Assembly (NCBI GenBank): GCA_964036045.1
Contig: OZ038388.1
Span: 31,641,759 to 31,705,758, forward strand
Length of the DNA stretch: 64,000 bases
Direction of reading: 5' to 3'
Origin: Eutreptiella sp. 'Long Island Sound 2002'
Taxonomy: Eukaryota > Euglenozoa > Euglenophyceae > Eutreptiales > Eutreptiaceae
Made by a program: the position numbers and the translations under genes. The first letter of the stretch is position 1; the number at the start of each line of letters is the position of its first letter. The notes below the pieces were generated by a model. It was given only the letters and a program-made list of their open reading frames with translations. It did not search any database and was not told the DNA's origin. This document shows, one piece after another, positions 9,841-51,416 of the stretch.

Positions 9841-9877
9841 AGCAACTCTCAACACCCGTCAATCCATATGTGGCTTT

Positions 9878-10257
9878 GTTGCCATGTAGGCTTTCTCATG
9901 GCATCCAAGCGGATTGTTATGTACGTTCCTTGGTTGCCGTGTAGGCTTTCTCACAGCAATCAAACTAATATTGACTTTGTCCGATGAGGGAACACAAGTG
10001 TTTGTTTGATGAGTGCACTTGCTCCATATGTGCCTTTGTTGCCATGTAGGCTTTCTCATGGCATCAAAACGTGCTTGTTATGTGGGTACCTTGGTTGCCG
10101 TGTAGGCTTTCTCACGGCAATCAAGCCATTTCACTTTCCAACGAGGAACACCTATGATGTTTGCCTTTGTTGCCATGTAGGCTTTCTCATGGCATCAAAA
10201 CGTGCTTGTTATGTGGGTACCTTGGTTGCCGTGTAGGCTTTCTCACGGCAATCAAGC
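9878..10257 (+). repeat. Hairpin cluster upstream of Helitron copy 1
   Basis: Six hairpins share the layout arm, unpaired T, AG, loop GCTTT, CT, second arm. Arms are TGCCATG with CATGGCA at 9880-9903, 10039-10062 and 10171-10194. They are TTGCCGTG with CACAGCAA (one mismatch) at 9934-9959. They are TTGGTTGCCGTG with CACGGCAATCAA, a 12-pair stem with one G-T, at 10091-10124 and 10222-10255. A ~131-bp unit holding two hairpins is duplicated in tandem (about 10026-10156 and 10157-10287). Confidence 0.9.
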
Positions 10258-10391
10258 CATTTCACTTTCCAACGAGGAACACCTATGATGTTTGACCATG
10301 CTATGGTTAGTTCCCAATTTGTGTCCCTTTATGGACGCTTAGTTGCTTTTTTTGTCACCATCCTTTGGTGTGGATTTTATTATTTGGACAC

Positions 10392-11369
10392 ATGCCGACG
10401 CCTTCACTGACCGACAAAGATTGTCATGATGTGGCTCGCCTATGGGGATGGTAGTGGGTACGCCAAGACAACCAAGACATGAAGGCCAAGGCGGTCATGC
10501 GGTGGAGTTGTGCATCTTGTGGAGAATCCAAGAATGTACGGTTTGATAACATGAAGAAGTTTGGTCCGAGAAAGCACAAGTGTTCAAAACAATCTCCACC
10601 ACAAGGGAATGAGGATAATGCGAACGCAAAAGACGGTCGCCCATCCGTCAGCACGTTGCATTGCAATCAACTTGCGGCCGAATATGGATGTGATTGGTTG
10701 GGGGTGCTTGTGGACAACGTCGTGCATGTAAACGACTCGCTCATTTCCTCAATTTGTGTGATGCGTTGGCAATGCTGGGGTTGTACCACCAATTTCGATC
10801 GTACATACAACAAGATGAAGAGTCGAGGCTTTGTTTGCTCCACCTGTAACGCATCACAATGTAAGGAGGACAAAAAGCGCGCAAAGAATGTGGGCTCCAA
10901 GGAGAAAAAGCAACGGGCGGGGCAAGCGGGTGGTGTGGTGGCATCCCGAGAGGACAAGGAGCGGGCAGGGCAAGCGGGCTCCAAGGAGAACAAGCAGCGG
11001 GCAAGGCAAGCGGGCTCCAAGGAGGACAAGCAGCGCGCAGGGCAAGCGGGCTCCAAGGAGAACAAGCAGCGGGCAGGGCAAGCGGGCTCCAAGGAGGACA
11101 AGCAGCGGGCAGGGCAAGCGGGCTCCAAGGAGAACAAGCAGCGGGCAGGGCAAGCGGGCTCCAAGGAGGACAAGCAGCGCGCAGGGCAAGCGGGCTCCAA
11201 GGAGAACAAGCAGCGGGCAGGGCAAGCGGGCTCCAAGGAGGACAAGCAGCGGGCAGGGCAAGCGGGCTCCAAGGAGGACAAGCAGCGGGCGGGACAGGCT
11301 AGCCCTAAGGAGGACAAGCAACGGGCGGGGCAAGCAGGCTCTAAGGAGGATAAGCAACGGGCAGGGTAA
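10392..11369 (+). pseudogene. Helitron zinc-ribbon ORF with 12-residue repeats, copy 1
   Basis: Counterpart of the ORF at 25576, counted from the matching ATG. Here a TAG at 10452-10454 replaces the lysine codon of WGWKW, so the longest open piece starts at Met 10479. It has two CxxC...CxxC zinc-ribbon-like modules: CASC with a later KC near the start, and RWQCWGC paired with VCSTC. After these comes a run of 12-residue repeats of the type AGSKEDKQRAGQ, with KENK and KEDK alternating, from about 10910 to the end. It stops at TAA 11367-11369 and the same frame stays open beyond. Related Helitrons often have zinc-binding and basic N-terminal regions; a nucleic-acid-binding role is inference. 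Confidence 0.75.
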
Positions 11370-11390
11370 TCTGGGGCCGTTCGGCGTGCT

Positions 11391-12956
11391 TTGAATTATG
11401 CACGTGAAACCTTGGCAAGCCAATCAACACAAGCCATTCAGCACATGTGGGAGAGAGGCGATGAGATAGAACCGCCCGGATCCGTTGTGGATGAAGATGA
11501 GGAAGCCATGCTGCAATCGGTTGCAGGCCCATCACCTGATGAGTTTACGAGATCAAAGGTTGGCACATCTCTTGCTTCAACTGTGAGAGGCTTTTGGGAG
11601 CAAACTGGAATGGATAGATTTCCGGTTCAACCTGCAGCCAATTTGGAGAGTTGTGAGTCTTTGGAGGCCTTGGTGCGAGCTATACTGGATGAGAAGGTGG
11701 ACACCGTAGATATGGTGGCGTTGGCCAAAGAGTGGCACAAAAAAGTCGGAGTATGCGAGGACATTCAATCTTGCGGGTGCTGCGGAGTGAGAGATTTCCA
11801 ACAAGTGAAGGAAGTGGAGGTATCCAAGTTGGACCTTTTAATGTTGGACACAGAACAAGTTTCATGGTACCATGGGATTCCCATTCAGTATCGCAAGTAT
11901 GCCGCGGTCTTTGAACAAGACACAACGCTATATTGGTTGCACCATGATCTTGTATCTAATGGTGCAGCGCAATTGTGTAATTCATGTCATCGGAGTTTGT
12001 TTCATCCAAAGAAAGGTCAAGTGCCACCAAATGCCATTGCTAGTGGCAAGCATTTTGGTAAGCGATGCGACTTACCAGAGTTAACGGATTTGGAGGAGCG
12101 TATGTTGGGACGAGTGCGGACGAAAGTAAACACCGTGAACCTTGTTAGTGCCAAGAATGGTGCAACATCGCAATGGGGTGTTCGAGGACATGCTATTTCT
12201 GTACCGCATGATGGTCCCGAAGTGTTGGCAGCACGTCTACCGGATGTAGAGGCTCTTGTGGGTACGAAGGTCATTTTTGTGGGACCGCGCCGTGATGCGG
12301 AGGCAATGCGTCGTGATCAACACTGCAAAGACCGAGTAGAGCGAATCTTCACACCGCGATTGGATCGATTGGTTCAATGGTTGCGACTTTTGAAAGTGAT
12401 CAATCCGGAATATGCCAACGTCGAAATCTTGGAGGTTGCACCACCTGAAGTGGTTGAGTTTCCAAATGCCGTATTTGACAATATGTCCATTGGTGATCAT
12501 CCAGACGTGATTGCAGCCGAAAAGCAATCCGGTGCGGACATTGCAGGAGCAAGAAAAGGTGACTTGGATGATGGTGAGGTAATATTCGATGCTGTTATGC
12601 TGTCGGATGGAGCATTATTGAATCGAGATGGGAACGATGTGCCACAAGTTCTTCAATCTATCAAGGAGGTGCTAGCGGACCGTCGTAACAGTATAGTTCG
12701 ACGAGAAGAGGTTGCCATGAACGAGTTTGAGGCCAATGACCGCCTTTTGACGTTGTCCTTTCCTTCGTTGTTTATGTTTGGAAGTGGTATAAAGCGGCCA
12801 TGTGGAGTTTCGGAAGTGGATACAAGGCACATGTTGTTGCAATATGATAATCGCTTTGCTGAAGCCCGGTCATTGGCCTCAAACTCGTTCATGGCAACTT
12901 CTTCTCGTCGAACTGAACTGTTACGACGGTCCGCTAGCATCTCCTTGATAGATTGA
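11391..12956 (+). pseudogene. Helitron Rep/helicase N-terminal part, copy 1, truncated by inversion
   Basis: In frame with the preceding zinc-ribbon ORF, separated from it only by the TAA at 11367-11369. The first ATG is 11445 (MWERGDEIEPPG). It contains a Cys-rich segment (SCGCCGVRDF, LCNSCHRSLFHP) and the conserved block LPELTDLEERMLGRVR with WGVRGHAISVPHDGP that usually precedes the Helitron Rep domain (a DUF6570-like region). Genuine sequence ends at 12868 (NRFAEAR); the last 29 codons read antisense through the inverted insertion. The rest of the protein resumes at 14733. Copy 2 shows the uninterrupted arrangement, so this is a disrupted copy. Confidence 0.85.
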
Positions 12957-13572
12957 AGAACTTGTGGCACATCGTTCCCATCTCGATTCAATAATGCTCC
13001 ATCCGACAGCATAACGGCATCCAATATTACCTCCCCATTATCCAAGTCACCTTTTCTTGCTCTTGCAATGTCCGCACCGGATTGCTTTTCGGCTGCAATC
13101 ACTTCTTGATGATCACCAATGGACATATTGTCAAATACGGCATTTGGAAACTCAACCACTTCAGGTGGTGCAACCTCCAAGATTTCGACGTTGGCATATT
13201 CCGGATTGATCACTTTCAAAACTCGCAACCATTGAACCAATCGATCCCATCGCGGTGTGAAGATTCGCTCTACTCGTTCTTTGCAGTGTTGATCACGACG
13301 CATAGCCTCCGCATCACGGCGCAGTCCCACAAAAATGACCTTCGTACCTACAAGACCCTCTACATCCGGTAGACGTGCTGCCAACACTTCGGGTCCATCA
13401 TGCGGTACAGAAATGGCATGTCCTCGAACACCCCATTGCGATGTTGCACCATTCTTGGCACTAACAAGCTTCACGGTGTTTACTTTCGTCCGCACTCGTC
13501 CAAACATACGCTCCTGCAAATCCATTAATTCCGGTAAGTCGCATCGCTTACCAAAATGCTTGCCACTAGCAA
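12869..13572 (-). pseudogene. Inverted duplicate of 12037-12740 (segment B')
   Basis: Reverse complement of 12037-12740, both 704 bases. On the minus strand it reads the block from GKHFGKRCDL to EAND, with a few differences such as LQERMF for LEERML. It begins directly after NRFAEAR of the forward copy and ends at TGCCACTAGCAA. The substitutions show it is not a simple perfect foldback error. Confidence 0.9.
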
Positions 13573-14730
13573 GGTTTCAACTACACGTCCATAACAAGGA
13601 TGTGGCCGTTGCAACTCCCATATGACGAGAACACAGCTTACCTTTTCATCATTGGCATCGAATTCTACTTCCGACTCATACATCCGGATGTTGTGCCTTC
13701 CTGAAGGGGTATGATACGCCACAAAGAAATGTGGCCGTGTTTCACTGTACCCTTCTCTTGCTGCACGAGGCAATCCAAAACGGCACCCGCTCTTTCCTGC
13801 TGGTGGTTTGCCGCAACTAGCAATGAGACACCTGTGGATTTGAATGTGTCCAAAGACCTTGGAGGCAAACTGTTCAATTTCCCGTGCCGCTTCATGGGGG
13901 TTGTCCGGCAATGGAGGCAAAAGTTGCTTCTCCTCTAGCATCCGTGGGGCTTCAACCTTGTGCTTTAGTCTATGCTCATAATCCTGGTGAATATGGGCAT
14001 CCAATGCGGCACATATTTGTTGATCCAACACCGTGGCAACAGCTTTCACAAGCTCCCTATTCCCCACAACCATGTCCAACAACCATGGGGGAATGCCACC
14101 CCAAAAGTCACTATGGAAATGGAGAGAGCCTCGGCCTTGGCACTCGTAGCATGTGCAATGGGCCATACATGTACCAAATAGACCCTTCTTACGGTTGCAC
14201 ACCGCACGATCTTTCTTGGTTTGCTTGGAACTCGGAAGACCTAGCCAAACCTCCAAGAAAGCCCGCACTTGTCACTCAAAAATGCGTGCGGGGCCACAGG
14301 GTTCTTGGATAACGCTTCAAATCGCCGCGAAACCTCCGGCAATGGAACACGGGCTTGGCGATCACCCATCGACAAACATAAAGACAACTCGTTGTCTATA
14401 TCATTTGGTGCAACCGTGTAGAAGAGACCTGGAGGCCCAAAGAACAGCATCATACTATTCATCTTCCCCATCACGGCATACCGCTCCGAAGTGCTGAAGG
14501 GCACCGCTGCATGGCAAGTCCGGAACAAAGGCATGAATGTGTGCACAAGGTGTCGCGCTTCTTTTCCTTGGGGGTTTGCTTCTGCCTTCTTCGAATCTGC
14601 CTCAAGACTGGGCGTGTTGATGGCCGTCTCAAATGCCTTCATTCGATTGGGATTGGCATAAATGGCGTCCCTGACGCTTCGCAATGCTGTGTGGCGAAAC
14701 TTTTGATTAAAGAGCAACAAACAAAAGTCG
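13573..14730 (-). pseudogene. Inverted duplicate of 14861-16019 (segment C')
   Basis: Reverse complement of 14861-16019, 1158 against 1159 bases. On the minus strand it carries the Rep region from the DFCLLLFNQ block through the HUH motif to PCYGRVVET, and is joined there to segment B'. A one-base deletion after SKNPVA shifts its frame, so it is non-functional. Differences from the forward copy include FLEVWLG for FLEILLG and LHFHSDFWGG for LHFHGHFWGG. Confidence 0.9.
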
Positions 14731-17700
14731 CGCGCCTTTTGACGTTGTCCTTTCCCTCGTTGTTTATGTTTGGAAGTGGTATCAAGCGGCCATGTGGAGT
14801 TTCGGAAGCGGATACAAGGCACATGTTGTTGCAATATGATAATCGCTTTGCTGAAGCCCGCGACTTTTGTTTGTTGCTCTTTAATCAAAAGTTTCGCCAC
14901 ACAGCATTGCGAAGCGTCAGAGACGCAATTTATGCCAATCCCAATCGAATGAAGGCATTTGAGATGGCCATCAACACGCCCAATCTTGAGGAAGATTTGA
15001 AGAAGGCAGAAGCAAACCCCCAAGGAAAAGAAGCGCGACACCTTGTGCACACATTCATGCCTTTGTTCCGGACTTGCCATGCAGCGGTGCCCTTCAGCGC
15101 TTCGGAGTGGTATGCCGTGATGGGGAAGATGAATAGTATGATGCTGTTCTTTGGGCCTCCAGGTCTCTTCTACACGGTTGCACCAAATGATATAGACAAC
15201 GAGTTGTCTTTATGTTTGTCGATGGGTGATCGCCAAGCCCGTGTTCCATTGCCGGAGGTTTCGCGGCGATTTGAAGCATTATCCAAGAACCCTGTGGCCG
15301 CCGCACGCATTTTTGAGCGACAAGTGCGGGCTTTCTTGGAGATTTTGCTAGGTCTTCCGAGTTCCAAGCAAACCAAGAAAGATCGTGCGGTGTGCAACCG
15401 TAAGAAGGGTCTATTTGGTACATGTGTGGCCCATTGCACATGCTACGAGTGCCAAGGCCGAGGCTCTCTCCATTTCCATGGTCACTTTTGGGGTGGCATT
15501 CCCCCATGGTTGTTGGACATGGTTGTGGGGAATAGGGAGCTTGTGAAAGCTGTTGCCACGGTGTTGGATCAACAAATATGTGCCGCATTGGATGCCCATA
15601 TTCACCAGGATTATGAGCATAGACTAAAGCACAAGGTTGAAGCCCCACGGATGCTAGAGGAGAAGCAACTTTTGCCTCCATTGCCGGACGACCCCCATGA
15701 AGCGGCACGGGAAATTGAACAGTTTGCCTCCAAGGTCTTTGGACACATTCAAATCCGCAGGTGTCTCATTGCTAGTTGCGGTAAACCACCAGAAGGAAAG
15801 AGCGGGTGCCGTTTTGGATTGCCTCGTGCAGCAAGAGAAGGGTACAGTGAAACACGGCCACATTTCTTTGTGGCGTATCATACCCCTTCAGGAAGGCACA
15901 ACATCCGGATGTATGAGTCGGAAGTAGAATTCGATGCCAATGATGAAAAGGTAAGCCGTGTTCTCGTCATATGGGAGTTGCAACGGCCACATCCTTGTTA
16001 TGGACGTGTAGTTGAAACCAACAAACTCTTGGCCTACCTGTATGCTAGCAACACAAATGTGCAATTCTTTGGAGGTGAGGACGTGCTAGTTGCTGTGGCC
16101 AAATACGTTGTTGGTTACTGTAGCAAGAATCCGGTAAGGATTGCCAATGTGTTGAGCACAATTCGTCAAGTGACTCGTGAGGTGGACAAAATGGACACCA
16201 CGGAGTTTGCACAACCCGGAGAGAAGGAGGCCTTGTTGCTAAAGCGCATCATCAACTCGTTGGACAAGAAGGTGGAATTTAGTGCGCAAATGGCAGCCGT
16301 CTCCTTGTTGGGATATCCCTCATGGCATTGCTCTCACACGTTTGCCGTTGTGCATCCTTGGAGCACTGTAACCACCATTCCTACTTTATTCAGTGGAATG
16401 TTGGAAGATGGAGGCGGGGAGAGTACAAGTGATGATGAAGGTCATGCAAACTTGCAGAATACTTGTGTGGATGCGCCATCCATTTCGTCATCTGGCTCAG
16501 ATGTGGTGGATGATGATCCCTTGGCAACATCAAATGTTGATATGCAGCAAGCATCACAAACGCCAACACATCCGCCTCCCAGTGACAATGGCAGAGGTTC
16601 TTCTGAGGATGACCAAGAAGACAACAATACTCTTGTGGAACACCTGAACTCTTTGACAATGGATGTGGCGCAATCCGATGCGGATGCAACATGCCGAGCG
16701 TACCTTTACACAATGGGTGAAGGATTGGAAGCCAGGCAAATTGCTATCACGCCCGCCATCAATTATGCTTGTCGTGGGAAGCGGCTTAGGGCCCTTTGCG
16801 CTCTTGAGTATTATTGTCTCATCAAAATAGAGCAACAGCGTGCAACGGACCCTATTGAAGTTACCGACGGTGTCAATGATGGGCGCCCTGAAAATGCCAT
16901 GTTTGATTTCCATCCCCGGCATGTGCTTGATGATAGTAATTACGTGCAATACCTAGTGTCACAATCTAGGTGCCCTATCTTGGCAGGGAAGCGCATGCCC
17001 GTGTGGCCCGGTGTGGATGGTAGTGCTCGCACAAGGAAGGCATGGGCCAAGTTTGTCATGTGCAATTTCGTTCCTTGGGATATCGAACTACCGCCCCAAA
17101 TCACTTGGAACGATTACTTGCAATGGGAGGAACATTGCAAGACCGCACATGCAAGCTACTTGGAGCGCAGTCGGCATTCCATGGTTGTCCGGTTGAAGAA
17201 GATTGGGCACTATGATCGCTTGCGAAAGTCATTAACGGATGACATTCGAAAGCGTTGTAGGAAGATTTGGGGTGTGAGGCACCCGTTGGATGTTGATTTC
17301 AACGCGGGTAAGGAGATGGCAGAGCTGAAGCAAACGAGAACGGAGGTGAAAGATACCAGGTTCGCCGAAGCGGTGCAGGATATGCAAGAAGCAATTCAAA
17401 AAGCCCAAAACGCAACTAAAAGAGGACGTTCGGCTTCAAGTGAGGAGGTTGATATCCTCAAAGAAGCCTTGAATTTGCAATTGGTGTTGGCACCGGCAAT
17501 GAGTCATGCCTCACGGGAAAAAGAAACAAAGTTTCTTTATGCTTTGGGAGATGATGATCATTACCCACATGGAGATGATATTTACTCCCATGCCCAAAGA
17601 GTATTCAATGATATCAAGGCTGAGGAGGAGTCACCGGAGACAGATGTTTCTTCCACATGTGCTAGTCACATTAGATCAACAGGAAGTCTAGATCAAGAAG

Positions 17701-20198
17701 AGATCATCGACAGGATCACAAATTACGTGAGGTTAGAGGCCACGTGCGACTCATCCGCAAAGCCAATTGCACCTTTAGTCTTCCTACATGCTGGCGGAGG
17801 ATCGGGAAAGAGTTGGGTGGCACGGGAAATCCATGCAAGATTACGACAAAGTTTTGGTTGGAACGTTGTGCGATTTGTTGCTCCATCAGGAATCGCCGCA
17901 AGTAATCTGGCAGAGGGATCTACCATCCATCATGCATTGGGCCTTGCTGTTTTTGATGGAGACAGTGAAACGCTACAATGCGAGAGCGACAAGGCAAAGT
18001 TGCACCGCTTGCGTAAACTTTTTGAAGGTTGCAAAGTGTTGATAGTGGATGAAGTCTCAATGGTTGGATGTCGCATGCTACGGGATATTCATAGCCGCCT
18101 ATGTGAGATCATGCAATGCCAAGATACACCATTTAGCGGTATGTGCGTGGTATTGATGGGTGATTTCGTGCAATTAACGCTTGTTGGTCAAACGGAATTG
18201 TTTGGATCCGTAAAAGTCCAAGTTGGTGGGCAAGACTTGAATGATGTATTTGGCCGGGAATTGTTCCAAAAGTTTGATGAGGTGAGTCTCGTGAAACAAC
18301 ATAGAGCCACGGATCCACAATACGCTGCATCGGTATCCGCCTTCCGTGAGTGGACCACTAGTGCTCTGCAAACACGCATGGAATTCTTGGATACCATTGT
18401 GGAAATCACCCCAGAGGAATTCAAGGACCCTACCTGGCAAGAAACCACAATTGTTAGCATTGATCAAAAGACCGTTCACGCTGTGAATGAAGTCATGCTT
18501 CAACGATTTGCTATTGCTCGAGGATTGCCCATTGTAGCTTGGAGGTTGCCAATGGTTGACAAGTATGAAAAGAAGTTTGGACACAATTCAAATTTCATCT
18601 ATGACACGGTGAAAGACATGACCGCATACTTTGTCCCACAAGCACCTTGTTGCCTCACAAGCAATTTAAGACCAGAGAAAGGATTGTCCAACGGCACCCA
18701 AGGACGGTTGCATAGCATTGTCCTGCATGCCGATGAAGCGCAAAGTAGAGCGCAAGAGATCCGTGATGCGCGTGCTGGTAACGTAGTGATGCTTGAGTTC
18801 CCACCATTTTGTGTCACCATTGCCATTGATGCTTCGGCCTTAAGTACAGGTGGAATGCAACATGACGATGCATCAAAGGTCGTTCTTCCTCTCATGCAAG
18901 TGCAACACAAGATCAACATTCATCGGTACATTGCTGTGCGCACCAAAGGTGGTGGGTCTTTGTACACTCACGCACATCCCTTCCGATTGACCTTTGGATC
19001 GACATATCATGGGGTGCAATGTAGGTCAATGGATAAAATCATCTTGGTCGTGGATGACAAGAGCCTACCTGCGTTGACGTACAACGCCTTCTACGTGGGC
19101 ATTAGCCGGGTTCGCACAGGTGATGGTCTTCGCGTTATTCGGTTGCGGAACCATGAAGAGGCACCGGAAGATTGGCGGGGTCGATTGAAGTCACTTGTTC
19201 CCAAAGTCATGGTTGTTCGATATATGTTGAAAACGAGCTATGAGAATGCTCACAATTTTTTGAAGGCCATGTACCGTGAATGGGATATTGACTACGACAT
19301 GAGAGGCCACGACAAGATAATCCGTCGCAAGGGATCCAAGAAGTCCCCTAAAAAAGGAACATTTCCTTGCGGCAAGCAATGTGGTCGGGTGTTCGCCACT
19401 CCACATCATCGACGACTGCATGAAGCAAGTTGCAAACATAATCCCAGCAATGCCGGCCAAGAAGAGAAAGTACAACATCTTTCCATCGTCGAGCCCCACT
19501 CGAGTGGCAAACGACCAATCAATACACCGTCTCCCGAACCCCGCAAAAGGCAATGTACGGGTACGGATACACACACCCGTGAAAGGCAACAAATGGAAGG
19601 GGATATCATTGACACTGTGCTACAACCCGCATTGGATGAAGACACTTTCATCAACGCCGCTTCCGAAGCACGAACGTTGCTAGATGAACGAGGACAACAA
19701 AGACTAGAACGGAAAGGAAAGCAACGTGTACGTGACAATGAAATCTCACCCACCGCACCTTCAAAGCGGAGACACCGCTCTTCCACATCAACACCGGCAA
19801 CAACATGCCATGCAACTTCACCTCCTAAAGCCTCCTCACTATCGCCACAAACCACCGCACCCCGTGCATGTGCAACGCCCATCCAATCATCGTCGTCATC
19901 TTCTTCTTCCTCCCAATCAATGCATGGTCCGCCCACACCTTGGGTTCCATGCCACATTTCCGCCGTGCCGGGATCCAGATTGGTTGAAATTGGATCACTA
20001 TTGTCAAAGTCCAAGGACAAGGTCACCATGGCTCAAACTCTACTGGGTGCCACAAGTGCTCAAGATGTTCGCAAACATTACTTGAAGCTCAGTGTTCAAC
20101 TGCATCCTGATAAGTCTAAAGACTCTTGGGCCACGGATCGCTTTCAATTGCTTTTGAAGGCATATAATCTCTTGAAGGACAAGTATAAATTGCATTGA
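14511..20198 (+). CDS. Helitron Rep-PIF1 helicase with C2H2-like finger and J-domain, copy 1
   Basis: Open frame of 1895 codons. The first 74 residues are antisense readthrough of the inverted insertion; real Rep/helicase sequence starts at 14733 (RLLTLSFPSLF). The HUH motif LHFHGHFWGG is near residues 320-329 and the two-tyrosine motif KYVVGYCSK near 531-539. An acidic Ser/Asp-rich linker follows. The PIF1-type helicase has Walker A GGGSGKS (Lys 1100), Walker B LIVDEVSMVG (Asp 1180, Glu 1181), GDFVQLTLVG and the arginine-finger motif YVGISRV near 1528. A C2H2-like finger starts near 1618 (CGKQCGRVF then HHRRLHEASCKH), followed by a basic and Ser-rich region. Residues about 1843-1893 form a J-domain with HPDK. 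Helitron proteins nick and unwind DNA for rolling-circle transposition. All helicase motifs look intact, but this copy lacks its collinear N-terminal part. Confidence 0.9.
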   Translation: MASPEQRHECVHKVSRFFSLGVCFCLLRICLKTGRVDGRLKCLHSIGIGINGVPDASQCCVAKLLIKEQQTKVARLLTLSFPSLFMFGSGIKRPCGVSEADTRHMLLQYDNRFAEARDFCLLLFNQKFRHTALRSVRDAIYANPNRMKAFEMAINTPNLEEDLKKAEANPQGKEARHLVHTFMPLFRTCHAAVPFSASEWYAVMGKMNSMMLFFGPPGLFYTVAPNDIDNELSLCLSMGDRQARVPLPEVSRRFEALSKNPVAAARIFERQVRAFLEILLGLPSSKQTKKDRAVCNRKKGLFGTCVAHCTCYECQGRGSLHFHGHFWGGIPPWLLDMVVGNRELVKAVATVLDQQICAALDAHIHQDYEHRLKHKVEAPRMLEEKQLLPPLPDDPHEAAREIEQFASKVFGHIQIRRCLIASCGKPPEGKSGCRFGLPRAAREGYSETRPHFFVAYHTPSGRHNIRMYESEVEFDANDEKVSRVLVIWELQRPHPCYGRVVETNKLLAYLYASNTNVQFFGGEDVLVAVAKYVVGYCSKNPVRIANVLSTIRQVTREVDKMDTTEFAQPGEKEALLLKRIINSLDKKVEFSAQMAAVSLLGYPSWHCSHTFAVVHPWSTVTTIPTLFSGMLEDGGGESTSDDEGHANLQNTCVDAPSISSSGSDVVDDDPLATSNVDMQQASQTPTHPPPSDNGRGSSEDDQEDNNTLVEHLNSLTMDVAQSDADATCRAYLYTMGEGLEARQIAITPAINYACRGKRLRALCALEYYCLIKIEQQRATDPIEVTDGVNDGRPENAMFDFHPRHVLDDSNYVQYLVSQSRCPILAGKRMPVWPGVDGSARTRKAWAKFVMCNFVPWDIELPPQITWNDYLQWEEHCKTAHASYLERSRHSMVVRLKKIGHYDRLRKSLTDDIRKRCRKIWGVRHPLDVDFNAGKEMAELKQTRTEVKDTRFAEAVQDMQEAIQKAQNATKRGRSASSEEVDILKEALNLQLVLAPAMSHASREKETKFLYALGDDDHYPHGDDIYSHAQRVFNDIKAEEESPETDVSSTCASHIRSTGSLDQEEIIDRITNYVRLEATCDSSAKPIAPLVFLHAGGGSGKSWVAREIHARLRQSFGWNVVRFVAPSGIAASNLAEGSTIHHALGLAVFDGDSETLQCESDKAKLHRLRKLFEGCKVLIVDEVSMVGCRMLRDIHSRLCEIMQCQDTPFSGMCVVLMGDFVQLTLVGQTELFGSVKVQVGGQDLNDVFGRELFQKFDEVSLVKQHRATDPQYAASVSAFREWTTSALQTRMEFLDTIVEITPEEFKDPTWQETTIVSIDQKTVHAVNEVMLQRFAIARGLPIVAWRLPMVDKYEKKFGHNSNFIYDTVKDMTAYFVPQAPCCLTSNLRPEKGLSNGTQGRLHSIVLHADEAQSRAQEIRDARAGNVVMLEFPPFCVTIAIDASALSTGGMQHDDASKVVLPLMQVQHKINIHRYIAVRTKGGGSLYTHAHPFRLTFGSTYHGVQCRSMDKIILVVDDKSLPALTYNAFYVGISRVRTGDGLRVIRLRNHEEAPEDWRGRLKSLVPKVMVVRYMLKTSYENAHNFLKAMYREWDIDYDMRGHDKIIRRKGSKKSPKKGTFPCGKQCGRVFATPHHRRLHEASCKHNPSNAGQEEKVQHLSIVEPHSSGKRPINTPSPEPRKRQCTGTDTHTRERQQMEGDIIDTVLQPALDEDTFINAASEARTLLDERGQQRLERKGKQRVRDNEISPTAPSKRRHRSSTSTPATTCHATSPPKASSLSPQTTAPRACATPIQSSSSSSSSSQSMHGPPTPWVPCHISAVPGSRLVEIGSLLSKSKDKVTMAQTLLGATSAQDVRKHYLKLSVQLHPDKSKDSWATDRFQLLLKAYNLLKDKYKLH
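14733..14860 (+). repeat. Second copy of the 128-bp D segment flanking the inversion
   Basis: Matches 12741-12868 in direct orientation (CGCCTTTTGACG to GCTGAAGCCCG), with a few substitutions. The two copies bracket the inverted B'C' block exactly, with two extra bases CG at 14731-14732. Confidence 0.9.
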
Positions 20199-21760: not shown

Positions 21761-21761
21761 G

Positions 21762-22539: not shown

Positions 22540-22968
22540 AACGTTTATACAACGTGCATTTTGTGGGGGAATGTTCGGATGGGCAAGTGGGCTTTCCCTT
22601 GCTGCTGAACATAAGTTGCAATTTCACCAACTCTCACGTGGGGCAAGAGGTTTGGAAGTGTTCCTGTCCATGTTGTATGTGGTTTGGCGCAACCATCATA
22701 CGTCATGGGCCACATTTAGGAAAAACCTCTGCCATGGAAAATGTGCATGTCTCAAGATATCTAGGTTTACCAAGTCTTGTGGTTTGGTGCCAACGGCCAG
22801 AGGGTAGGGGGCAACGGGTGCTATGCTCTTGGCCAGTGGAAACCGCCCCCTCCGGTATACAAACAACCCATCGGAGCAGCGTAGCACCTAAGACCGGGGG
22901 ATTTACTCTAGTCGGGGGAGTAGAGTTACGTCATCGTGACCTTATGGGCTGTATCCCCACATTGTACT
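22540..22968 (+). repeat. Hairpin unit plus ~320-bp module, copy 1b
   Basis: A single GCTTT hairpin (GCAAG at 22583-22587, loop 22591-22595, CTTGC at 22598-22602) is followed by a second module copy from about 22640. The outer arms GGTGCTATGC and GCGTAGCACC are kept (T-G in place of T-A). The inner stem is damaged (CCAGTGG), and ACTCTA...TAGAGT and GTCATCGTGAC are present. It closely matches 40100-40542. Confidence 0.8.
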
Positions 22969-25020: not shown

Positions 25021-25061
25021 AGCAAGCAACTCTCAACACCCGTCAATCCATATGTGGCTTT

Positions 25062-26565: not shown

Positions 26566-26586
26566 TCCGGGGCCGTTCGGCGTGCT

Positions 26587-31116: not shown

Positions 31117-33396
31117 TCTACCATCCATCATGCATTGGGGCTTGCTGTTTTTGATGGAGACAGTGAAACGCTACAATGCGAGAGCGACAAGGCAAAGTTG
31201 CACCGCTTGCGTAAACTCTTTGAAGGTTGCAAAGTGTTGATAGTGGATGAAGTCTCAATGGTTGGTTGTCGCATGCTACGGGATATTCATAGCCGCCTTT
31301 GTGAGATCATGCAATGCCAAGATAAACCATTTGGTGGTATGTGTGTCGTATTGATGGGTTATTTCGTGCAATCAACGCTTGTTGGTCAAACGGAATTGTT
31401 TGGATCCGTAAAAGTCCAAGTTGGTGGGCAAGACTTGAATGATGTATTTGGCCGGGAATTGTTCCAAAAGTTTGATGAGGTGAGTCTCGTGAAACAACAT
31501 AGAGCCACGGATCCACAATACGCTGCATCGGTATCCGCCCTCCGTGAATGGACCACTAGTGCTATGCAAACACGCATGGAATTCTTGGATACCATCGTGG
31601 AAATCACCCCAGAGGAATTCAAGGACCCTACCTGGCAAGAAACCACAATCGTTAGCACTGATCAAAAGACCGTTCACGCTGTGAATGAAGTCATGCTTCA
31701 ACGATTTGCTATTGCTCGAGGATTCCCCATTATAGCTTGGAGGTTGCCAATGGTTGACAAGTATGAAAAGAAGTTTGGACACAATTCAAATTTCATATAT
31801 GACACGGTGAAAGACATGACCGCATACTTTGTCCCACAAGCACCTTGTTGCCTCACAAGCAATTTAAGACCAGAGAAAGGATTGTCCAACGGCACCCAAG
31901 GACGGTTGCATAGCATTGTCCTGCATGCCGATGAAGCGCAAAGTAGAACGCAAGAGATCCGTGATGCGCGTGCTGGTACTGTAGTGATGCTTGAGTTCCC
32001 ACCATTTTGTGTCACCATTGCCATTGATGCTTCGGCCTTAAGTACAGGTGGAATGCAACATGACGATGCATCAAAGGTCGTTCTTCCTCTCATGCAAGTG
32101 CAACGCAAGATCAACATTCATCGGTACATTGCTGTGCGCACCAAAGGTGGTGGGTCTTTGTACACTCACGCACATCCCTTCCGATTGACCTTTGGATCGA
32201 CATATCATGGGGTGCAATGTAGGTCAATGGATAAAATCATCTTGGTCGTGGATGACAAGAGCCTACCTGCGTTGACGTACAACGCCTTCTACGTGGGCAT
32301 TAGCCGGGTTTGCACAGGTGATGGTCTTCGTGTTATTCGGTTGCGGAACCATGAAGAGGCACCGGAAGATTGGCGGGGTCGATTGAAGTCACTTGTTCCC
32401 AAAGTCATGGTTGTTCGATATATGTTGAAAACGAGCTATGAGAATGCTCACAACTTTTTGAAGGCCATGTACCGTGAATGGGATATTGACTACCACATGA
32501 GAGGCCACAACAAGAGAATCCGTCGCAAGGGATCCAAGAAGTCCCCTAAAAAAGGAACATTTCCTTGCGGCAGGCAATGTGGTCGGGTGTTCACCACTCC
32601 ACATCATCGGCGACTGCATGAAGCAAATTGCAAACATGATCCCAGCAATGCCGGCCAAGAAGAGAAAGTACAACATCTTTCCATCGTCGAGCCCCACTCG
32701 AGTGGCAAACGACCAATCAATACACCGTCTCCCGAACCCCGCAAAAGGCAATGTACGGGTACGGATACACACACCCGTGAAAGGCAACAAATGGAAGGGG
32801 ATATCATTGACACTGTGCTACAACCCGCATTGGATGAAGACACTTTCATCAACGCCGCTTCCGAAGCACGAACGTTGCTAGATGAACGAGGACAACAAAG
32901 ACTAGAACGGAAAGGAAAGCAACGTGTACGTGACAATGAAATCTCACCCACCGCACCTTCAAAGCGGAGACACCGCTCTTCCACATCAACACCAGCAACA
33001 ACATGCCATGCAACTTCACCTCCCAAAGCCTCCTCACTATCGCCACAAACCACCGCACCCCCAGCAAGTGCAACGCCCATCCAATCATCGTCATCATCTT
33101 CTTCTTCCTCCCGATCAATGCATAGTCCGCCTACACCTTGGGTTCCATGCCACACTTCCGCCGTGCCGGGATCCAGATTGGTTGAGATTGGATCACTATT
33201 GTCGAAGTCCAAGGACAAGGTCACCATGGCTCAAACTCTACTGGGTGCCACAAGTGCTCAAGATGTTCGCAAGCATTACTTGAAGCTCAGTGTTCAACTG
33301 CATCCTGACAAGTCTAAAGACTCTTGGGCCACGGATCGCTTTCAATTGCTTTTGAAGGCATATAATCTCTTGAAGGACAAGTATAAATTGCATTGA
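31117..33396 (+). CDS. PIF1 helicase remainder, C2H2-like finger and J-domain, copy 2
   Basis: The same frame continues directly after the TGA at 31114-31116; no ATG starts it before the conserved sequence (HHALGLAVFDGD), so it is most likely a pseudogene half or needs readthrough. Walker B LIVDEVSMVG and YVGISRV are intact. The motif read as GDFVQLTLV in copy 1 is GYFVQSTLV here, losing the Asp and the Leu. The C2H2-like finger (CGRQCGRVF then HHRRLHEANCKH) and the terminal J-domain with HPDK are preserved, ending KDKYKLH. J-domains recruit HSP70 chaperones; the role here is unknown. Confidence 0.85.
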   Translation, partial: STIHHALGLAVFDGDSETLQCESDKAKLHRLRKLFEGCKVLIVDEVSMVGCRMLRDIHSRLCEIMQCQDKPFGGMCVVLMGYFVQSTLVGQTELFGSVKVQVGGQDLNDVFGRELFQKFDEVSLVKQHRATDPQYAASVSALREWTTSAMQTRMEFLDTIVEITPEEFKDPTWQETTIVSTDQKTVHAVNEVMLQRFAIARGFPIIAWRLPMVDKYEKKFGHNSNFIYDTVKDMTAYFVPQAPCCLTSNLRPEKGLSNGTQGRLHSIVLHADEAQSRTQEIRDARAGTVVMLEFPPFCVTIAIDASALSTGGMQHDDASKVVLPLMQVQRKINIHRYIAVRTKGGGSLYTHAHPFRLTFGSTYHGVQCRSMDKIILVVDDKSLPALTYNAFYVGISRVCTGDGLRVIRLRNHEEAPEDWRGRLKSLVPKVMVVRYMLKTSYENAHNFLKAMYREWDIDYHMRGHNKRIRRKGSKKSPKKGTFPCGRQCGRVFTTPHHRRLHEANCKHDPSNAGQEEKVQHLSIVEPHSSGKRPINTPSPEPRKRQCTGTDTHTRERQQMEGDIIDTVLQPALDEDTFINAASEARTLLDERGQQRLERKGKQRVRDNEISPTAPSKRRHRSSTSTPATTCHATSPPKASSLSPQTTAPPASATPIQSSSSSSSSSRSMHSPPTPWVPCHTSAVPGSRLVEIGSLLSKSKDKVTMAQTLLGATSAQDVRKHYLKLSVQLHPDKSKDSWATDRFQLLLKAYNLLKDKYKLH

Positions 33397-33590: not shown

Positions 33591-36500
33591 AGAAGGGATG
33601 TTCAGAGTGGGCAAGTGGGCTTCCCCTTGCTGCTGAACAAAGCATTGGCTGGAGTCAAAAAGCATGGATTGGACGATTGTACAAGGTGGGCTTTGTAAAA
33701 GAGGGGCATGTTCTGAGTGGACAAGTGGGCTTTCGCTTGTTGTTGAACAAAGCAGTGAAGTGGGGTCAAGAAACATGGATATGGGCTTTTCATAAGTTGC
33801 ACTCTTTTGAAAAGGGATGTTCTGAGTGGGCAAGTGGGCTTTCCCTTGCTACTCAACAAAGCCTTGGCTACAATCAAGAAGCATGTATTGGACGATTGTA
33901 CAAGGCGGACTTTGTAAAAGAGGGGCATGTTCAGAGTGCGCAAATGGGCTTTCCCTTGCTGCTGAACAAAGCATTGACGTGGGGTCAACAAACATGGATA
34001 TGGCCGTTTTACAAGTTGCACTCTTTTGAAGAAGGGATGTTCAGAGTGGGCAAGTGGGCGTTCCCTTGCTGCTGAACAAAGCATTGAAGTGGGGTCAAGA
34101 AACATGGATATGGGCTTTTTACAAATTGCACTCTTTTGAAGAAGGAACGTTCAAAGTGGGCAAGTGGGCTTTCCCTTGCTGCTGAACAAAGCATCGGCCG
34201 GAGTCAAGAAGCATGGATTGGACGATTGTACAAGGTGGATTTTGTAAGAGAGGGGCATGTTCAGAGTGGGCAAGTGGGCTTTCCCTTGCTGCTGAACAAA
34301 GCATTGAACTGGGGTCAAGAAACATGGATATGGGCTTTTTACAAATTGCACTCTTCTTAAGAAGGAACGTTCAAAGTGGGCAAGTGGGCTTTCCCTTGCT
34401 GCTGAACAAAGCATTGGCCGGAGTCAAGAAGCATGGATTGGACGATTGTACAAGGTGGATTTTGTAAGAGAGGGGCATGTTGAGAGTGGGCAAGTGGGCT
34501 TCCCCTTGCTGCTGAACAAAGCAATATGGATATGGGCGTTTTACAAGTTGCACTCTTTTGAAGAAGAAATGTTCAGAGTGGGCAAGTGGGCTTTCCCTTG
34601 CTGCTGAACAAAGCATTGACATGGGGTCATGAAATATGGATATGGACGTTTACAAGTTGCACTCTTTTGAAGAAGGGATTGTCACATTGGGCAAGTGGGC
34701 TTTCCCTTGCTGTTGAACAAAGCATTAGCCGAAGTCAAAAAGCATTGAACTGCGGTCAAGAGACATGGATATGGACTTTTAACGAGTTGCATTCTTTTGA
34801 AGAAGGGATGTTCAGAGTGGGCAAGTGGGCTTTCCCTTGCTGCTCAACAAAGCATTGGCCGGAGTCAAGAAGCATGGATTGCACGATTGTACAAGGTGGA
34901 CTTTATAAGAGTGGGGCATGTTGAGAGTGGGCAAGTGGGCTTTCCCTTGCTGCTGAACAAAGCATTGAACTGGGGTCAAGAAACATGAATATGGGCGTTT
35001 TACAAGTGGCACTCTTTTGAAGAAGGGATGTTCAGAGTGGGCAAGTGGGCTTTCCCTTGCTGCTGAACAAAGCATTGGCCGGAGTTTAGAGCATGGATTA
35101 GACGATTCTACAAATTGGACTTTGTGGAGAAGGGCATGTTAAGAGTGGGCAAGTGGGCTTTCCCTTGCTGCTGAACAAAGCATTGGCCGGAGTCAAGAAG
35201 CATGGATCGCACGATTGTACAAGGTGGGCTTTATAAGAGTGGGGCATGTTCAGAGTGGGCAAGTGGGCTTTCCCTTGCTGCTGAACAAAGCATTGAACTG
35301 GGGTCAAGAAACATGAATATGGGCGTTTTACAAGTGGCACTCTTTTGAAGAAGGGATGTTCAGAGTGGGCAAGTGGGCTTTCCCTTGCTGCTGAACAAAG
35401 CATTGGCCGGAGTTTAGAGCATGGATTAGACGATTCTACAAATTGGACTTTGTGGAGAAGGGCATGTTCAGAGTGGGCAAGTGGGCTTTCCCTTGCTGCT
35501 GAACAAAGCATTGGCCGGAGTTTAGAGCATGGATTAGACGATTCTACAAATTGGACTTTGTGGAGAAGGGCATGTTCAGAGTGGGCAAGTGGGCTTTCCC
35601 TTGCTGCTGAACAAAGCATTGGCCGGAGTCAAGAAGCATGGATCGCACGATTGTACAAGGTGGGCTTTATAAGAGTGGGGCATGTTGAGAGTGGGCAAGT
35701 GGGCTTTCCCTTGCTGCTGAACAAAGCATTGAACTGGGGTCAAGAAACATGAATATGGGCGTTTTACAAGTGGCACTCTTTTGAAGAAGGGATGTTCAGA
35801 GTGGGCAAGTGGGCTTTCCCTTGCTGCTGAACAAAGCATTGAACTGGGGTCAAGAAACATGAATATGGGCACTTTACAAGTGGCACTCTTTTGAAGAAGG
35901 GATGTTCAGAGTGGGCAAGTGGGCTTTCCCTTGCTGCTGAACAAAGCATTGGCCGGAGTTTAGAGCATGGATTAGACGATTCTACAAATTGGACTTTGTG
36001 GAGAAGGGCATGTTAAGAGTGGGCAAGTGGGCTTTCCCTTGCTGCTGAACAAAGCATTGGCCGGAGTTTAGAGCATGGATTAGACGATTCTACAAATTGG
36101 ACTTTGTGGAGAAGGGCATGTTAAGAGTGGGCAAGTGGGCTTTCCCTTGCTGCTGAACAAAGCATTGGCCGGAGTCAAGAAGCATGGATCGCACGATTGT
36201 ACAAGGTGGGCTTTATAAGAGTGGGGCATGTTCAGAGTGGGCAAGTGGGCTTTCCCTTGCTGCTGAACAAAGCATTGAACTGGGGTCAAGAAACATGAAT
36301 ATGGGCGTTTTACAAGTGGCACTCTTTTGAAGAAGGGATGTTCAGAGTGAGCAAGTGGGCTTTCCCTTGCTGCTGAACAAAGCATTGGCCGGAGTTTAGA
36401 GCATGGATTAGACGATTCTACAAATTGGACTTTGTGGAGAAGGGCATGTTCAGAGTGGGCAAGTGGGCTTTCCCTTGCTGCTGAACAAAGCATTGGCTGG

Positions 36501-37690
36501 AGTTTAGAGCATGGATTAGACGATTCTACCAATTGGACTTTGTGGAGAAGGGCATGTTCAGAGTGGGCAAGTGGGCTTTCCCTTGCTGCTGAACAAAGCA
36601 TTGGCCGGAGTCAAGAAGCATGGATCGCACGATTGTACAAGGTGGGCTTTATAAGAGTGGGGCATGTTCAGAGTGGGCAAGTGGGCTTTCCCTTGCTGCT
36701 GAACAAAGCATTGAACTGGGGTCAAGAAACATGAATATGGGCGTTTTACAAGTGGCACTCTTTTGAAGAAGGGATGTTCAGAGTGAGCAAGTGGGCTTTC
36801 CCTTGCTGCTGAACAAAGCATTGGCCGGAGTTTAGAGCATGGATTAGACGATTCTACAAATTGGACTTTGTGGAGAAGGGCATGTTCAGAGTGGGCAAGT
36901 GGGCTTTCCCTTGCTGCTGAACAAAGCATTGGCTGGAGTTTAGAGCATGGATTAGACGATTCTACCAATTGGACTTTGTGGAGAAGGGCATGTTCAGAGT
37001 GGGCAAGTGGGCTTTCCCTTGCTGCTGAACAAAGCATTGGCCGGAGTCAAGAAGCATGGATCGCACGATTGTACAAGGTGGGCTTTATAAGAGTGGGGCA
37101 TGTTGAGAGTGGGCAAGTGGGCTTTCCCTTGCTGCTGAACAAAGCATTGAACTGGGGTCAAGAAACATGAATATGGGCGTTTTACAAGTGGCACTCTTTT
37201 GAAGAAGGGATGTTCAGAGTGGGCAAGTGGGCTTTCCCTTGCTGCTGAACAAAGCATTGGCCGGAGTTTAGAGCATGGATTAGACCATTCTACAAATTGG
37301 ACTTTGTGGAGAAGGGCATGTTCAGAGTGGGCAAGTGGGCTTTCCCTTGCTGCTGAACAAAGCATTGGCCGGAGTCAAGAAGCATGGATCGCACGATTGT
37401 ACAAGGTGGGCTTTATAAGAGTGGGGCATGTTCAGAGTGGGCAAGTGGGCTTTCCCTTGCTGCTGAACAAAGCATTGAACTGGGGTCAAGAAACATGAAT
37501 ATGGGCGTTTTACAAGTGGCACTCTTTTGAAGAAGGGATGTTCAGAGTGAGCAAGTGGGCTTTCCCTTGCTGCTGAACAAGCATTGGCCGGAGTTTAGAG
37601 CATGGATTAGACGATTCTACAAGGTGGACTTTGTGGAGAGGGGCATGTTCAGAGTGGGCAAGTGGGCTTTCCCTTGCTGCTGAACAAAAC
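33591..37690 (+). repeat. ~109-bp hairpin tandem array, copy 2, with higher-order repeats
   Basis: About three dozen units of the same hairpin repeat as 20391-21760, three times as long. Early units (33600-34700) vary in spacer type and carry loop variants. From about 34900 to 37600 the units are nearly identical and fall into multi-unit blocks; for example, the block at 36432 recurs 436 bases later at 36868, four units. This points to recent unequal exchange or replication slippage. The hairpin has arms GTTCAG with CTGAAC and GCAAG with CTTGC, loop GCTTT. Confidence 0.93.
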
Positions 37691-37698
37691 TCAAAAAA

Positions 37699-38022: not shown

Positions 38023-38149
38023 GCATTTTTCAACTTTCCAGGCCATTCGGTCCGACTGTTTCTTTTATTCCGAAAGTAAGTACAAGCACAAACGTCTTCA
38101 AGGCACGACCTTTTAACACTATGGCCTCTATGGCCTCTATTTCTCTCTA

Positions 38150-38824
38150 ATGAAGAAGCGGCAAAAAATACACTTCTTTCCACTCCAAGCGCACCACTCA
38201 GCCCCATTGCATGTGAAAACACAAATGGACCGTTTGTTTGGATGGCATGCCAAATTCCCGCACAGCCGTCATACAACCACTAGTAGTATCAATGCCTTTT
38301 TGCGCAAACATGGTGGGCATTTTGATGTGACAATGCTCTTGCAAAAATGTGCCAATGTAGAATTGGACATTGATATTTTCGAAGATCTTATCTCTCGGAT
38401 GTTACACGTCACCAATACCAATGACCGGGTTGATGTGCTCATGGCAAATCGCTCCAATTTTCCATTCCCGGAGTTGGAGGCGTTCTTAGATGGAATGACC
38501 GTAACATGCATGAACGATCTCATTCCCACACTGGCGCCACCGGTCACACCATCACCACAAACACCAAACACCCCGGGGAATCCGAGCTCCAAGATTTCAG
38601 TCATTCCTTTCGAACTCCCATCCGATGAGGATGGCAAGGAGGAGGACTCACCACAAAAGAGAGCATCCGAAAAGAAAAGTACTTCAACAGAAAAATCGCT
38701 AAAAAGGCCCTGTTTGGAAAAGGATCACGCACCTGCCATGTCCGCAACACAAAGGAAGACCGTCACACCCGAGAACTCCAAAAAAAAAAACTCCAAAAAT
38801 GTTAGAGGTCCCCAAAATGGGTGA
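38150..38824 (+). CDS. Hypothetical 224-residue protein, Lys/Ser-rich C-terminus
   Basis: Open frame with ATG (MKKRQKIHFF) and stop TGA. It is not built from the surrounding repeats and its base use resembles the Helitron ORFs. Residues about 25-125 look globular (FGWHAKFPHSRHTTTSSINA, then VELDIDIFEDLISRMLHV). Residues about 130-224 are Pro/Ser/Thr- and then Lys-rich (EKKSTSTEKSLKRP), suggesting a nuclear, disordered tail. No family was recognised. It lies after the copy 2 module and is absent from the matching place in copy 1 (about 22170). It could be an accessory transposon gene, a captured host fragment or a chance frame. Confidence 0.5.
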   Translation: MKKRQKIHFFPLQAHHSAPLHVKTQMDRLFGWHAKFPHSRHTTTSSINAFLRKHGGHFDVTMLLQKCANVELDIDIFEDLISRMLHVTNTNDRVDVLMANRSNFPFPELEAFLDGMTVTCMNDLIPTLAPPVTPSPQTPNTPGNPSSKISVIPFELPSDEDGKEEDSPQKRASEKKSTSTEKSLKRPCLEKDHAPAMSATQRKTVTPENSKKKNSKNVRGPQNG

Positions 38825-39960
38825 AGCCAATGATACGGATGATGAGTAGTTCGGTTCATCATTTGTGTCCCTCGCCACATGCGCATGTAGGCTTTCTCAT
38901 GTGCGTGTGAATGAGGTATCCAATCAAATACTAACATGTGTGCCTTACCATGTTAGGAATTTGAATGCAGCTACATGCCTAAAAGCAAGCCGACTGGGGT
39001 TTCTCCTGATGTTGACGGGAATTGATTCAATGATGCACACAACGCCACACATTCTCATGTACTTGTGGATGAAGTACCCGGTCAACAACTAACATGTGTG
39101 CCTTACCATGTTAGGAATTTGATTGCCGGGTGTTTTCATTTGGCTCCAATATGAGACCTTGAAAAATAGCTACATACCTAAAAGCTTGTTTTGGGTATCG
39201 GTCTGTTTACCGGGGTGACATGGTTGCACAACCAATGTGCCAATTTTCATCACCTTTGTCCCTTACCATTCCTACATGTAGGCTTTCTCATGTGGGTATG
39301 GAAGGTTTTTCAAACACATAGCATATGTGGTTTACCACGGTACGCTTTGATTACCAATTTTACTTTGAAGAGCACGGCAATCCGTTTTCTTTTCGCAGGT
39401 TTTACTTCAGATTCAACAATCACATGTGTGCGTGGGCATGAACTCCAAATTGATGTATGAGTGCCTCAGAAAGACCACATGTAGGCTTTCTCTTGTGGAT
39501 GTCGATGTCATTTCCTATGACTTGAGGCTAACCTACATGATACACCAATGGCTATTATTTGCATTATCTTGTGACACATATCAACGTGTGTGCCTTACCA
39601 CGTTGGTAGGTGTACAAACATGTGACTTTTAAGGTACCATGCACATGGCCCTTTCTCTTGCCACATGGTTGTGGTGCATTCAATTTCAAAGTTCAACCTC
39701 AAAGCAATTGCAACCACATATATGTACCATATGGCCAATCCGTTTCGCACCCCATGGGCTTCCCCCCATGGCTATTGTTGATGAAAACACAGAATGCCTT
39801 TCCAATGTCTGATTTGCCAATGCGCATTTGTGCATGCACACATAATAACAACATAGTCTCTTCCCATGGCATGTGGGCTTTCCCATGCCATTTCCGGTGA
39901 AGAATCCTAATTTTTGAACCAATTCACAACGTTATTCCAACCGTCACCAATCAAAATCAT
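38825..39960 (+). repeat. Spacer with four dispersed, covarying GCTTT hairpins
   Basis: No gene was seen. Hairpin 38876-38909 has arms CACATGCGCATG and CATGTGCGTGTG (12 pairs, two G-T). Hairpin 39266-39301 has arms CCATTCCTACATG and CATGTGGGTATGG (12 of 13 pairs counting one G-T). Hairpin 39475-39498 has arms CCACATG and CTTGTGG (6 of 7). Hairpin 39866-39891 has arms ATGGCATG and CATGCCAT (8 of 8) with GG and CC closing the loop. The motif GTGTGCCTTACCA also recurs near 38939, 39095 and 39587. Confidence 0.85.
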
Positions 39961-40542
39961 TTCTAGTTACCAATGAAAAAAAATTTTCTCTTGCTGCAGA
40001 ACAAAACATTGAGGTGGGGTCAACAGGCATGGATACACTCTTTTAAAAAAATGGCAAGTGGGCTTTCCCTTGCTGCTTAACAAAGCATTAGGTGAAGTCA
40101 ACAAGCATGGATTGAACGTTTGTACAACGTGCATTTTGTGGGGGAATGTTCGGATAGGCAAGTGGGCTTTCCCTTGCGACTGAACATAAGTTGCAATTTC
40201 ACCAACTCTCAAGTGGGGACAAGAGTTTTGGAAGTGTTCCTATCCATGTATGTGGTTTGGGGCAACCATCATGCATCATGGAGCACATTTAGTAAGAACC
40301 TCTACCGTGAAAAATGTGTATGTCTCAAGATATCTAGGTTTACCAAATCTTGTGGTTGTGTGCCAACGGCCAGAGGGTAGGAGGCAACGGGTGCTATGCT
40401 CTTGGCCGATGGGAAGCGCCCCCTCCGGTATACAAACAACCCATCGGAGCAGCGTAGCACCTAAGACCGGGGGATTTACTCTAGTCGGGGGAGTAGAGTT
40501 AGGTCATCGTGACCTTATGGGCTGTATCCCGACATTGTACTA
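39961..40542 (+). repeat. Two hairpin units plus ~320-bp module, copy 3
   Basis: GCTTT hairpins lie at 40054-40073 and 40158-40177 (arms GCAAG and CTTGC). The fourth module copy follows from about 40215. It keeps GGTGCTATGC with GCGTAGCACC, CCGATGGG with CCCATCGG (all Watson-Crick here), ACTCTA...TAGAGT and GGTCATCGTGACC. It is closest to the copy at 22540-22968. Confidence 0.8.

Positions 40543-47884: not shown

Positions 47885-51416
<3,532 letters not shown>

Follow-up and report, generated by a model that had tools for sequence, protein, structure and literature searches.

An internal hairpin family with covarying stems in a Helitron2-like element of Eutreptiella

We describe a family of short hairpins in a stretch of 64,000 nucleotides from Eutreptiella sp. 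'Long Island Sound 2002' (contig OZ038388.1 of assembly GCA_964036045.1, positions 31641759-31705758), here called the window. Genome-wide scans cover the whole assembly of 2,280,300,865 bases in 2,205 contigs. The window contains a 12-bp satellite, a ~600-bp repeat and two Helitron copies, A and B. From its predicted Rep HUH, PIF1 and DnaJ domains, the carrier of the hairpins is a Helitron2-like element. Terminal hairpins and the capture of genes are well-known traits of Helitrons. The hairpins studied here are internal, and their usual form is a lower stem, a bulged T, an upper stem of two pairs and a GCYTT loop.

Hairpins in the window

The hairpin sites, all on the + strand, are as follows.

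9875..10255, +, 5' cluster of copy A, six hairpins (9875, 9930, 10035, 10091, 10166, 10222), by covariance model and folds
20402..21749, +, array of copy A, 13 hairpins, unit ~110 bp
22576..22609, +, single hairpin in the second copy of the 3' module, by model and fold
23051..23084, +, hairpin ATGGCAAG-T-AG-GCTTT-CT-CTTGCCAT, ~170 bp from the 3' end of copy A
25059..25439, +, 5' cluster of copy B, six hairpins, by model
33600..37688, +, array of copy B, 38 hairpins, by model and monomer alignment
38876..38960, +, pair of hairpins 51 nt apart, classes AG-GCTTT-CT and GT-GCCTT-AC
39085..39118, +, hairpin of the GT-GCCTT-AC class
39267..39300, +, hairpin, AG-GCTTT-CT
39470..39503, +, imperfect hairpin, AG-GCTTT-CT, one arm mismatch
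39577..39610, +, hairpin of the GT-GCCTT-AC class, arms of 10 pairs
39862..39895, +, hairpin, GG-GCTTT-CC, arms ATGGCATG/CATGCCAT
40047..40080, +, hairpin, GG-GCTTT-CC, weak fold
40151..40184, +, hairpin, GG-GCTTT-CC, homologous to 22576

Matches to the core TRGGCTTTCYC number 65 on the + strand and none on the - strand, where 0.14 are expected. A covariance model trained on 16 window sites, with a reporting threshold of E < 0.02, finds 74 places, all of them on the + strand: 12 in the two 5' clusters, 51 in the two arrays (13 + 38) and 11 elsewhere. The first-pass annotation, made from the letters alone, had spoken of dozens of sites, all on the strand of the Rep and helicase genes. The strand holds without exception, and the number holds as a count of places. 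As a count of independent sites it shrinks considerably: 51 of the 74 are two tandem arrays of one ~110-bp unit, the 5' cluster is duplicated across the two Helitron copies, and about ten classes are distinct.

Within the first 45 kb, a scan for hairpins of any sequence built of a stem, a 5' bulge, two base pairs, a 5-nt loop and a closing stem gave 24 finds on the + strand and one on the - strand. All but one of the + finds (23 of 24; 21 of these are listed and 2 others were excluded by the arm filter) fall in the family, the exceptions being 31321 (+) and the single - find. The same scan exposed a second class, GT-GCCTT-AC, at 38939, 39097 and 39589.

None of the 74 hairpins lies within the seven gene frames tested, which occupy 16,515 of the 30,826 bases of the two elements (bounds approximate; mechanical open reading frames (ORFs) crossing the arrays were excluded). 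The nearest hairpins stand 245 nt before gene 1, 220 nt after gene 1 and 64 nt after ORF2.

When 12 hairpins were folded, most took the expected shape. In RNA folding the GCCTT class comes out with an upper stem of three pairs and a loop of 3 nt. The hairpin at 40047 is matched by 27 of 200 shuffles, and the one at 39470, where a mismatch breaks the stem, by 45 of 200 as RNA; pairing at this last site (39482) is poor, a point on which the first-pass description does not hold.

A few details of arrangement can be added. The 5' cluster of copy A alternates between two arm classes, with A-T or G-C at the third arm pair, and its array hairpins have the arms GCAAG/CTTGC and the outer stem GTTCAG/CTGAAC. 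The counterpart of the 23051 hairpin in copy B, near 40635, has decayed. Fixed pairs of hairpins of unlike class are also seen: 51 nt apart near ORF2 (in the window and in the related loci L051, L052 and L054) and 56 nt apart in the 5' cluster (10035-10124).

Covariation and conservation

The family and its covarying stems are real. Across the 16 sites 92% of the cells are paired, both partners vary in 8 of 10 stem pairs, and the covariation score is 0.684 against 0.233 after shuffling, with none of 500 shuffles as high. Collapsing the copies into 10 classes does not remove the signal: 95% of the cells are paired, both partners again vary in 8 of 10, and the score is 0.767 against 0.249 (0 of 500 as high). 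The arms therefore differ and yet stay complementary, as first described. Slid structures on the 10 classes pair just 35-57%. Measures of pair count and pair type are less extreme, being reached by 12 and 36 of 500 shuffles for the 10 classes and by 33 and 41 of 500 for the 16 sites.

Invariant across the 10 classes are the bulged T, the loop letters G, C, T and T, and the first and fourth pairs below the bulge. Among the 35 distinct array monomers, hairpin segments differ by 0-11% and the spacer by 29%. The mean pairwise difference is 0.044 in the loop, 0.045 and 0.011 in the inner arms and 0.287 in the spacer, and the outer 5' arm is the most changed segment of the hairpin. The loop is thus better conserved than the arms between classes only; within the arrays it equals the inner arms.

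The bulge is T in 35 of 35 monomers, and the same monomers include two GCGTT loops, two GCTTC loops and two broken closing pairs. With these and the GCCTT class in the window, the loop is not invariant as had been claimed. A reading of the array as CRISPR-like was ruled out, as the 35 distinct spacers form 4 related groups.

Matches across the genome

In the whole genome the core CNNGTRGGCTTTCYCNNG, a pattern that does not require complementary arms, is matched 4,150 times, and its reversed form 59 times. For CATGTNNGCYTTNNCATG the numbers are 797 and 78. Eleven fetched loci hold 156 model places at E up to 0.05, on a single strand in each locus. The bulge is T in 90 of the 92 distinct hits of these loci and C in 2, and it is C in 4 of 57 hits of 8 further loci; its constancy, absolute in the arrays, is only near-complete elsewhere. 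Many genomic copies contain broken pairs. In L051 two hairpin sets face each other.

L051, L052 and L054 carry relatives of the ORF2 region with homologous hairpins, and at one of these a compensatory change is observed: the closing pair, A-T in L051, L052 and the window, is G-C in L054. The same hairpin has the loop GCTCT in L051 and a C bulge in L052. That the closing pair switches as a unit is borne out here; the two closing states first reported have to be extended by a third, GT/AC.

In L053 three good hairpins surround a third gene, two of them upstream and one 22 nt after the stop, and at the threshold used the locus has no DNA similarity to the window. The gene (1305-1860, - strand) has no Pfam or NCBIfam match. 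Its relatives form five clusters, one of which, P0019, stands for 12 sequences. P0023, a relative of ORF2, also stands for 12 sequences, and the longest contig is 2,040,366 in both. Because the two clusters match in this way, the L053 gene and ORF2 may share an element.

Such placement raises the question of whether the hairpins could be signals for RNA processing or 3' end formation, at which a long transcript of the element would be cut or terminated between genes. They are intergenic and on the gene strand, and the one past the L053 stop codon would be well placed. However, hairpins also precede the first gene and form arrays of 13 and 38 copies, and we regard this explanation as very improbable. 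For a ribozyme or a processing site as such, suggested in the first pass, we found nothing in favour.

Among the smaller matches, L056, L061 and L062 have one clear hairpin each with flanks alike by eye, and L056 is 67% like the ~600-bp repeat. Core matches in L009-L012, without similarity to the window elements, and in L055 and L057, with weak arms, were treated as chance. In viral contigs CATGTAGGCTTTCTCATG has no matches and no Rep relatives were found; eight matches to AAGTGGGCTTTCCCTT were judged to be chance for a 16-mer on a rough estimate.

A further explanation is that the hairpins have no function. Tandem duplication and template switching would keep the palindromes complementary, and shared ancestry would account for the rest. 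Most copies are indeed tandem duplicates, and the broken pairs in the genome suit such a history. Template switching should, however, erase the bulge, which is still T in almost all distinct hits, and one common loop amid unrelated flanks is left unexplained. Neither is an excess of G.U over A.C predicted, and such an excess is seen (below). We consider this explanation improbable, though less so than a processing signal.

Which strand folds

An A-T pair yields G.U and A.C by complementary mutations, so that equal numbers are expected if the strand is irrelevant. At the third arm position there are 70 G.U and 5 A.C sites; merged into clusters within 100 kb these become 28 and 5 (p 7e-5). For the closing pair with complementary arms G.U has 48/68 sites and A.C 21/29 (p 0.0016), the reversed controls of the two patterns giving 33 and 9. 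Among the first 100 CATGTNNGCYTTNNCATG matches listed, G.U closings (GG..CT) number 3 and A.C closings (AG..CC) 0. From these sequence counts, the + single strand seems to be what folds.

The counts are not equally firm throughout, and several of them weigh against the reading that we favour below. By clusters the closing pair gives 32 G.U against 18 A.C (p 0.065), and the seven inner pairs of the 92 distinct hits give 23 against 11 (p 0.058). Leaving out the pair adjacent to the bulge changes the latter to 19 against 6 (p 0.015), an exclusion chosen post hoc in hits from a model that already allows G.U. The 20 G.U sites at the second arm position, whose A.C counterpart is CAAGTRGGCTTTCYCCTG, are a one-sided count. 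Further, the 70 sites at the third position may derive from few inherited variants, and the clusters may likewise share such variants. Finally, the excess does not separate RNA from DNA: G.T also favours the + strand as single-stranded DNA. The G-T pairs, first taken to point to RNA, thus retain their meaning for the strand but equally allow single-stranded DNA.

The carrier element

The genes and ends of the element are given below. Copy A is taken to run from 8.8 kb to ~23.2 kb and copy B from 24.5 kb to ~40.8 kb, with only approximate 5' bounds.

10479..20198, +, gene 1 of copy A, broken and rearranged (frames 10479-11369, 11391-12956 with DUF6570, and 14511-20198)
23225..23255, +, 3' end of copy A, ACCCAGCTCGG within a hairpin, then GAGTCTTGATT
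25663..33396, +, gene 1 of copy B, interrupted by stops (frames 25663-26565, 26587-31116, 31135-33396)
38150..38824, +, ORF2, 224 aa, with longer relatives (P0023, L052)
40788..40818, +, 3' end of copy B, identical to that of copy A

The large frame of copy A (14511-20198) has Helitron_like_N, PIF1 and DnaJ domains with HFH and YVVGY motifs. In copy B, DUF6570 and Helitron_like_N fall in 26587-31116 and PIF1 and DnaJ in 31135-33396. Relatives of the Rep at ~70% (P0002-P0004) were also found. The N-terminal frame of gene 1 has 36-bp tandem repeats (10863-11369 in A, 26047-26565 in B), and the Rep region of copy A contains nested inverted duplications of 444-719 bp (12037-16019).

In both copies ACCCAGCTCGG starts 31 bp before the end of GAGTCTTGATT. 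This 3' end is common to A, B, L039, L042, L044, L046 and L049, in some with 1-2 letters changed, and in L042 the flank after it differs. The exact inverted partner ACCGAGCTGGG was not found at the 5' end of copies A or B, whose 5' bounds are approximate. Apart from this 5' partner, the predicted ends and genes fit Helitron2 as given in PMC3627910. Helitron2 has an inverted repeat about 20-30 bp from the 3' end; it lies upstream of the 3' hairpin in that description, whereas here ACCCAGCTCGG is inside it. A 3' module (21922-22085, 22790-22960, 37850-38015, 40370-40535) has a long predicted stem around GGGTGCTATGCT/AGCRTAGCACC; it is nearly invariant and so offers no usable covariation, in an alignment with one misplaced row (L060).

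ORF2 hints that a protein binding single strands may be among those encoded by the element. Its relatives P0023 and L052 have weak matches to an RPA C-terminal domain, below the cut-off (E 0.12 and 0.022), and P0023 has CxxC pairs. The protein models of ORF2 are of low confidence (mean pLDDT 37.9 and 34.5), and a profile search of solved structures gave no match.

The 3' end of the ~600-bp repeat is identical to that of the Helitron, and most of its units start with ACCGAGCTGGG. It forms a satellite at 1740-9800, 23256-24990 and 40819-43990 that looks like a tandem deletion derivative of the Helitron. No repeat of this kind sharing the ends of the element has a covariance-model match at E < 0.02, and the hairpin is therefore dispensable for the short derivatives being numerous.

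These observations bear on whether the hairpin is instead folded as single-stranded DNA and read during rolling-circle transfer by the HUH Rep of the element, or by its helicase or RPA-like protein. A Rep with the HFH and YVVGY motifs is encoded. According to PMC8266576, the HUH protein of REP requires the unpaired state in the stem and recognises one strand, and in IS608 the contacts are with an unpaired T and with a T of the loop. Hairpins also lie towards both ends of the element, and there are hairpins in the element of L039, which spans ~5 kb and lacks a long Rep match. However, the ends already bear the usual Helitron2 signals, the 5' partner of copies A and B aside, the numerous ~600-bp derivatives have no model match at E < 0.02, hairpins also surround accessory genes far from the ends, and no fixed foot tetranucleotide is present. 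We judge this explanation unlikely, but it is the most serious alternative. Since every gene has hairpins next to it but not in its frame, and since the short derivatives are without them, we lean towards RNA rather than single-stranded DNA as the folded molecule.

The rest of the window

A single unit of the 12-bp satellite lies between two ~600-bp units at position 3992. At 47700-51700, exons and introns resembling an Hsp70 gene were read by eye, and adjoining them, at 52-64 kb, is a stretch of 71-80% GC with 23/26-bp repeats. No tRNA was found in the window.

Relation to known hairpins

In the window no Rfam family reaches its gathering cut-off, in line with the first impression that no named family fits. 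In the open-access full-text literature we did not find an internal, repeated hairpin with covarying arms in Helitrons, nor the loop letters as words. What is new here is the structure and its placement; recognition hairpins and the transposon group are already known.

The operator of the leviviral (MS2) coat protein consists of a stem, one 5' bulge, two pairs and a small loop. The present hairpin has the same architecture, with one 5' bulge two pairs below a small loop and arms that are largely free. The bulge base, loop length and loop letters differ, the copies are many and the partner protein is putative. The iron-responsive element is one type of bulged hairpin that occurs in the untranslated regions of several genes and is read by a protein; it differs in bulge spacing, loop and setting.

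The terminal hairpins and asymmetric inverted repeats of Helitron2 (PMC3627910, PMC5148889) are alike in transposon type and in being noncoding hairpins, and compensatory changes in these end structures are noted there. Those described there are single and at the ends, while the present ones are internal and repeated, with a common bulge and loop and variable arms. REP/TnpAREP and IS608 share strand-specific hairpins with irregular stems, an HUH protein in the element and, for REP, a high copy number (PMC8266576, PMC5934647). REP has a GTAG foot and here there is none, alignment columns 1-4 being variable. Other differences are the one-base bulge on the 5' side and the eukaryotic host; binding by Rep is putative.

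Discussion

Covariation after collapsing, the compensatory change at a homologous hairpin, the excess of G.U over A.C, and differences of 0-11% in the hairpin against 29% in the spacer together support selection on the folded shape plus the loop, as the first-pass annotation had suggested. By analogy, the anatomy of a lower stem, one bulge, two pairs, a small loop and free arms is that of hairpins read by proteins.

The reading that we favour, tentatively and at a little less than an even chance, is that the hairpin, outside the gene frames of the Helitron2-like element, folds as RNA in untranslated flanks and is bound by one putative protein. This protein would read the bulge, the upper stem and the loop, while the arms would mainly need to pair. 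The contact could act on the messages of the element, through their stability, translation or export. A first candidate for the binder is a protein encoded by the element itself, and the leviviral coat-protein operator, here in many copies, may serve as a working model. A point in its favour is L053, where the hairpins are shared although the DNA has no similarity to the window at the threshold used.

A more specific version, possible but somewhat less probable, is that all genes of a rolling-circle transposon, even the accessory ones, would be tagged with a common RNA operator, a bulged hairpin whose arms covary freely, so that the messages would form a regulon with one protein reader.

Besides the weaker counts above, other points tell against a protein-read RNA. 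The location of the hairpin in messenger RNA is itself deduced from the DNA. Unequal exchange, and not transposition, could be what multiplies the short repeats. An operator does not need as many as 38 tandem copies, and neither bulge nor loop is absolute.

Such a regulon, if it exists, would give the operator arrays of phages a natural counterpart in a eukaryote, with as many as 38 copies one after another. Binding of the hairpin by a protein of the element, if true, would reveal the way in which a Helitron deals with its messages or its single-stranded DNA, and would provide a compact new hairpin-protein pair. With thousands of natural variants in one genome, the rules of recognition may be readable from the sequence.

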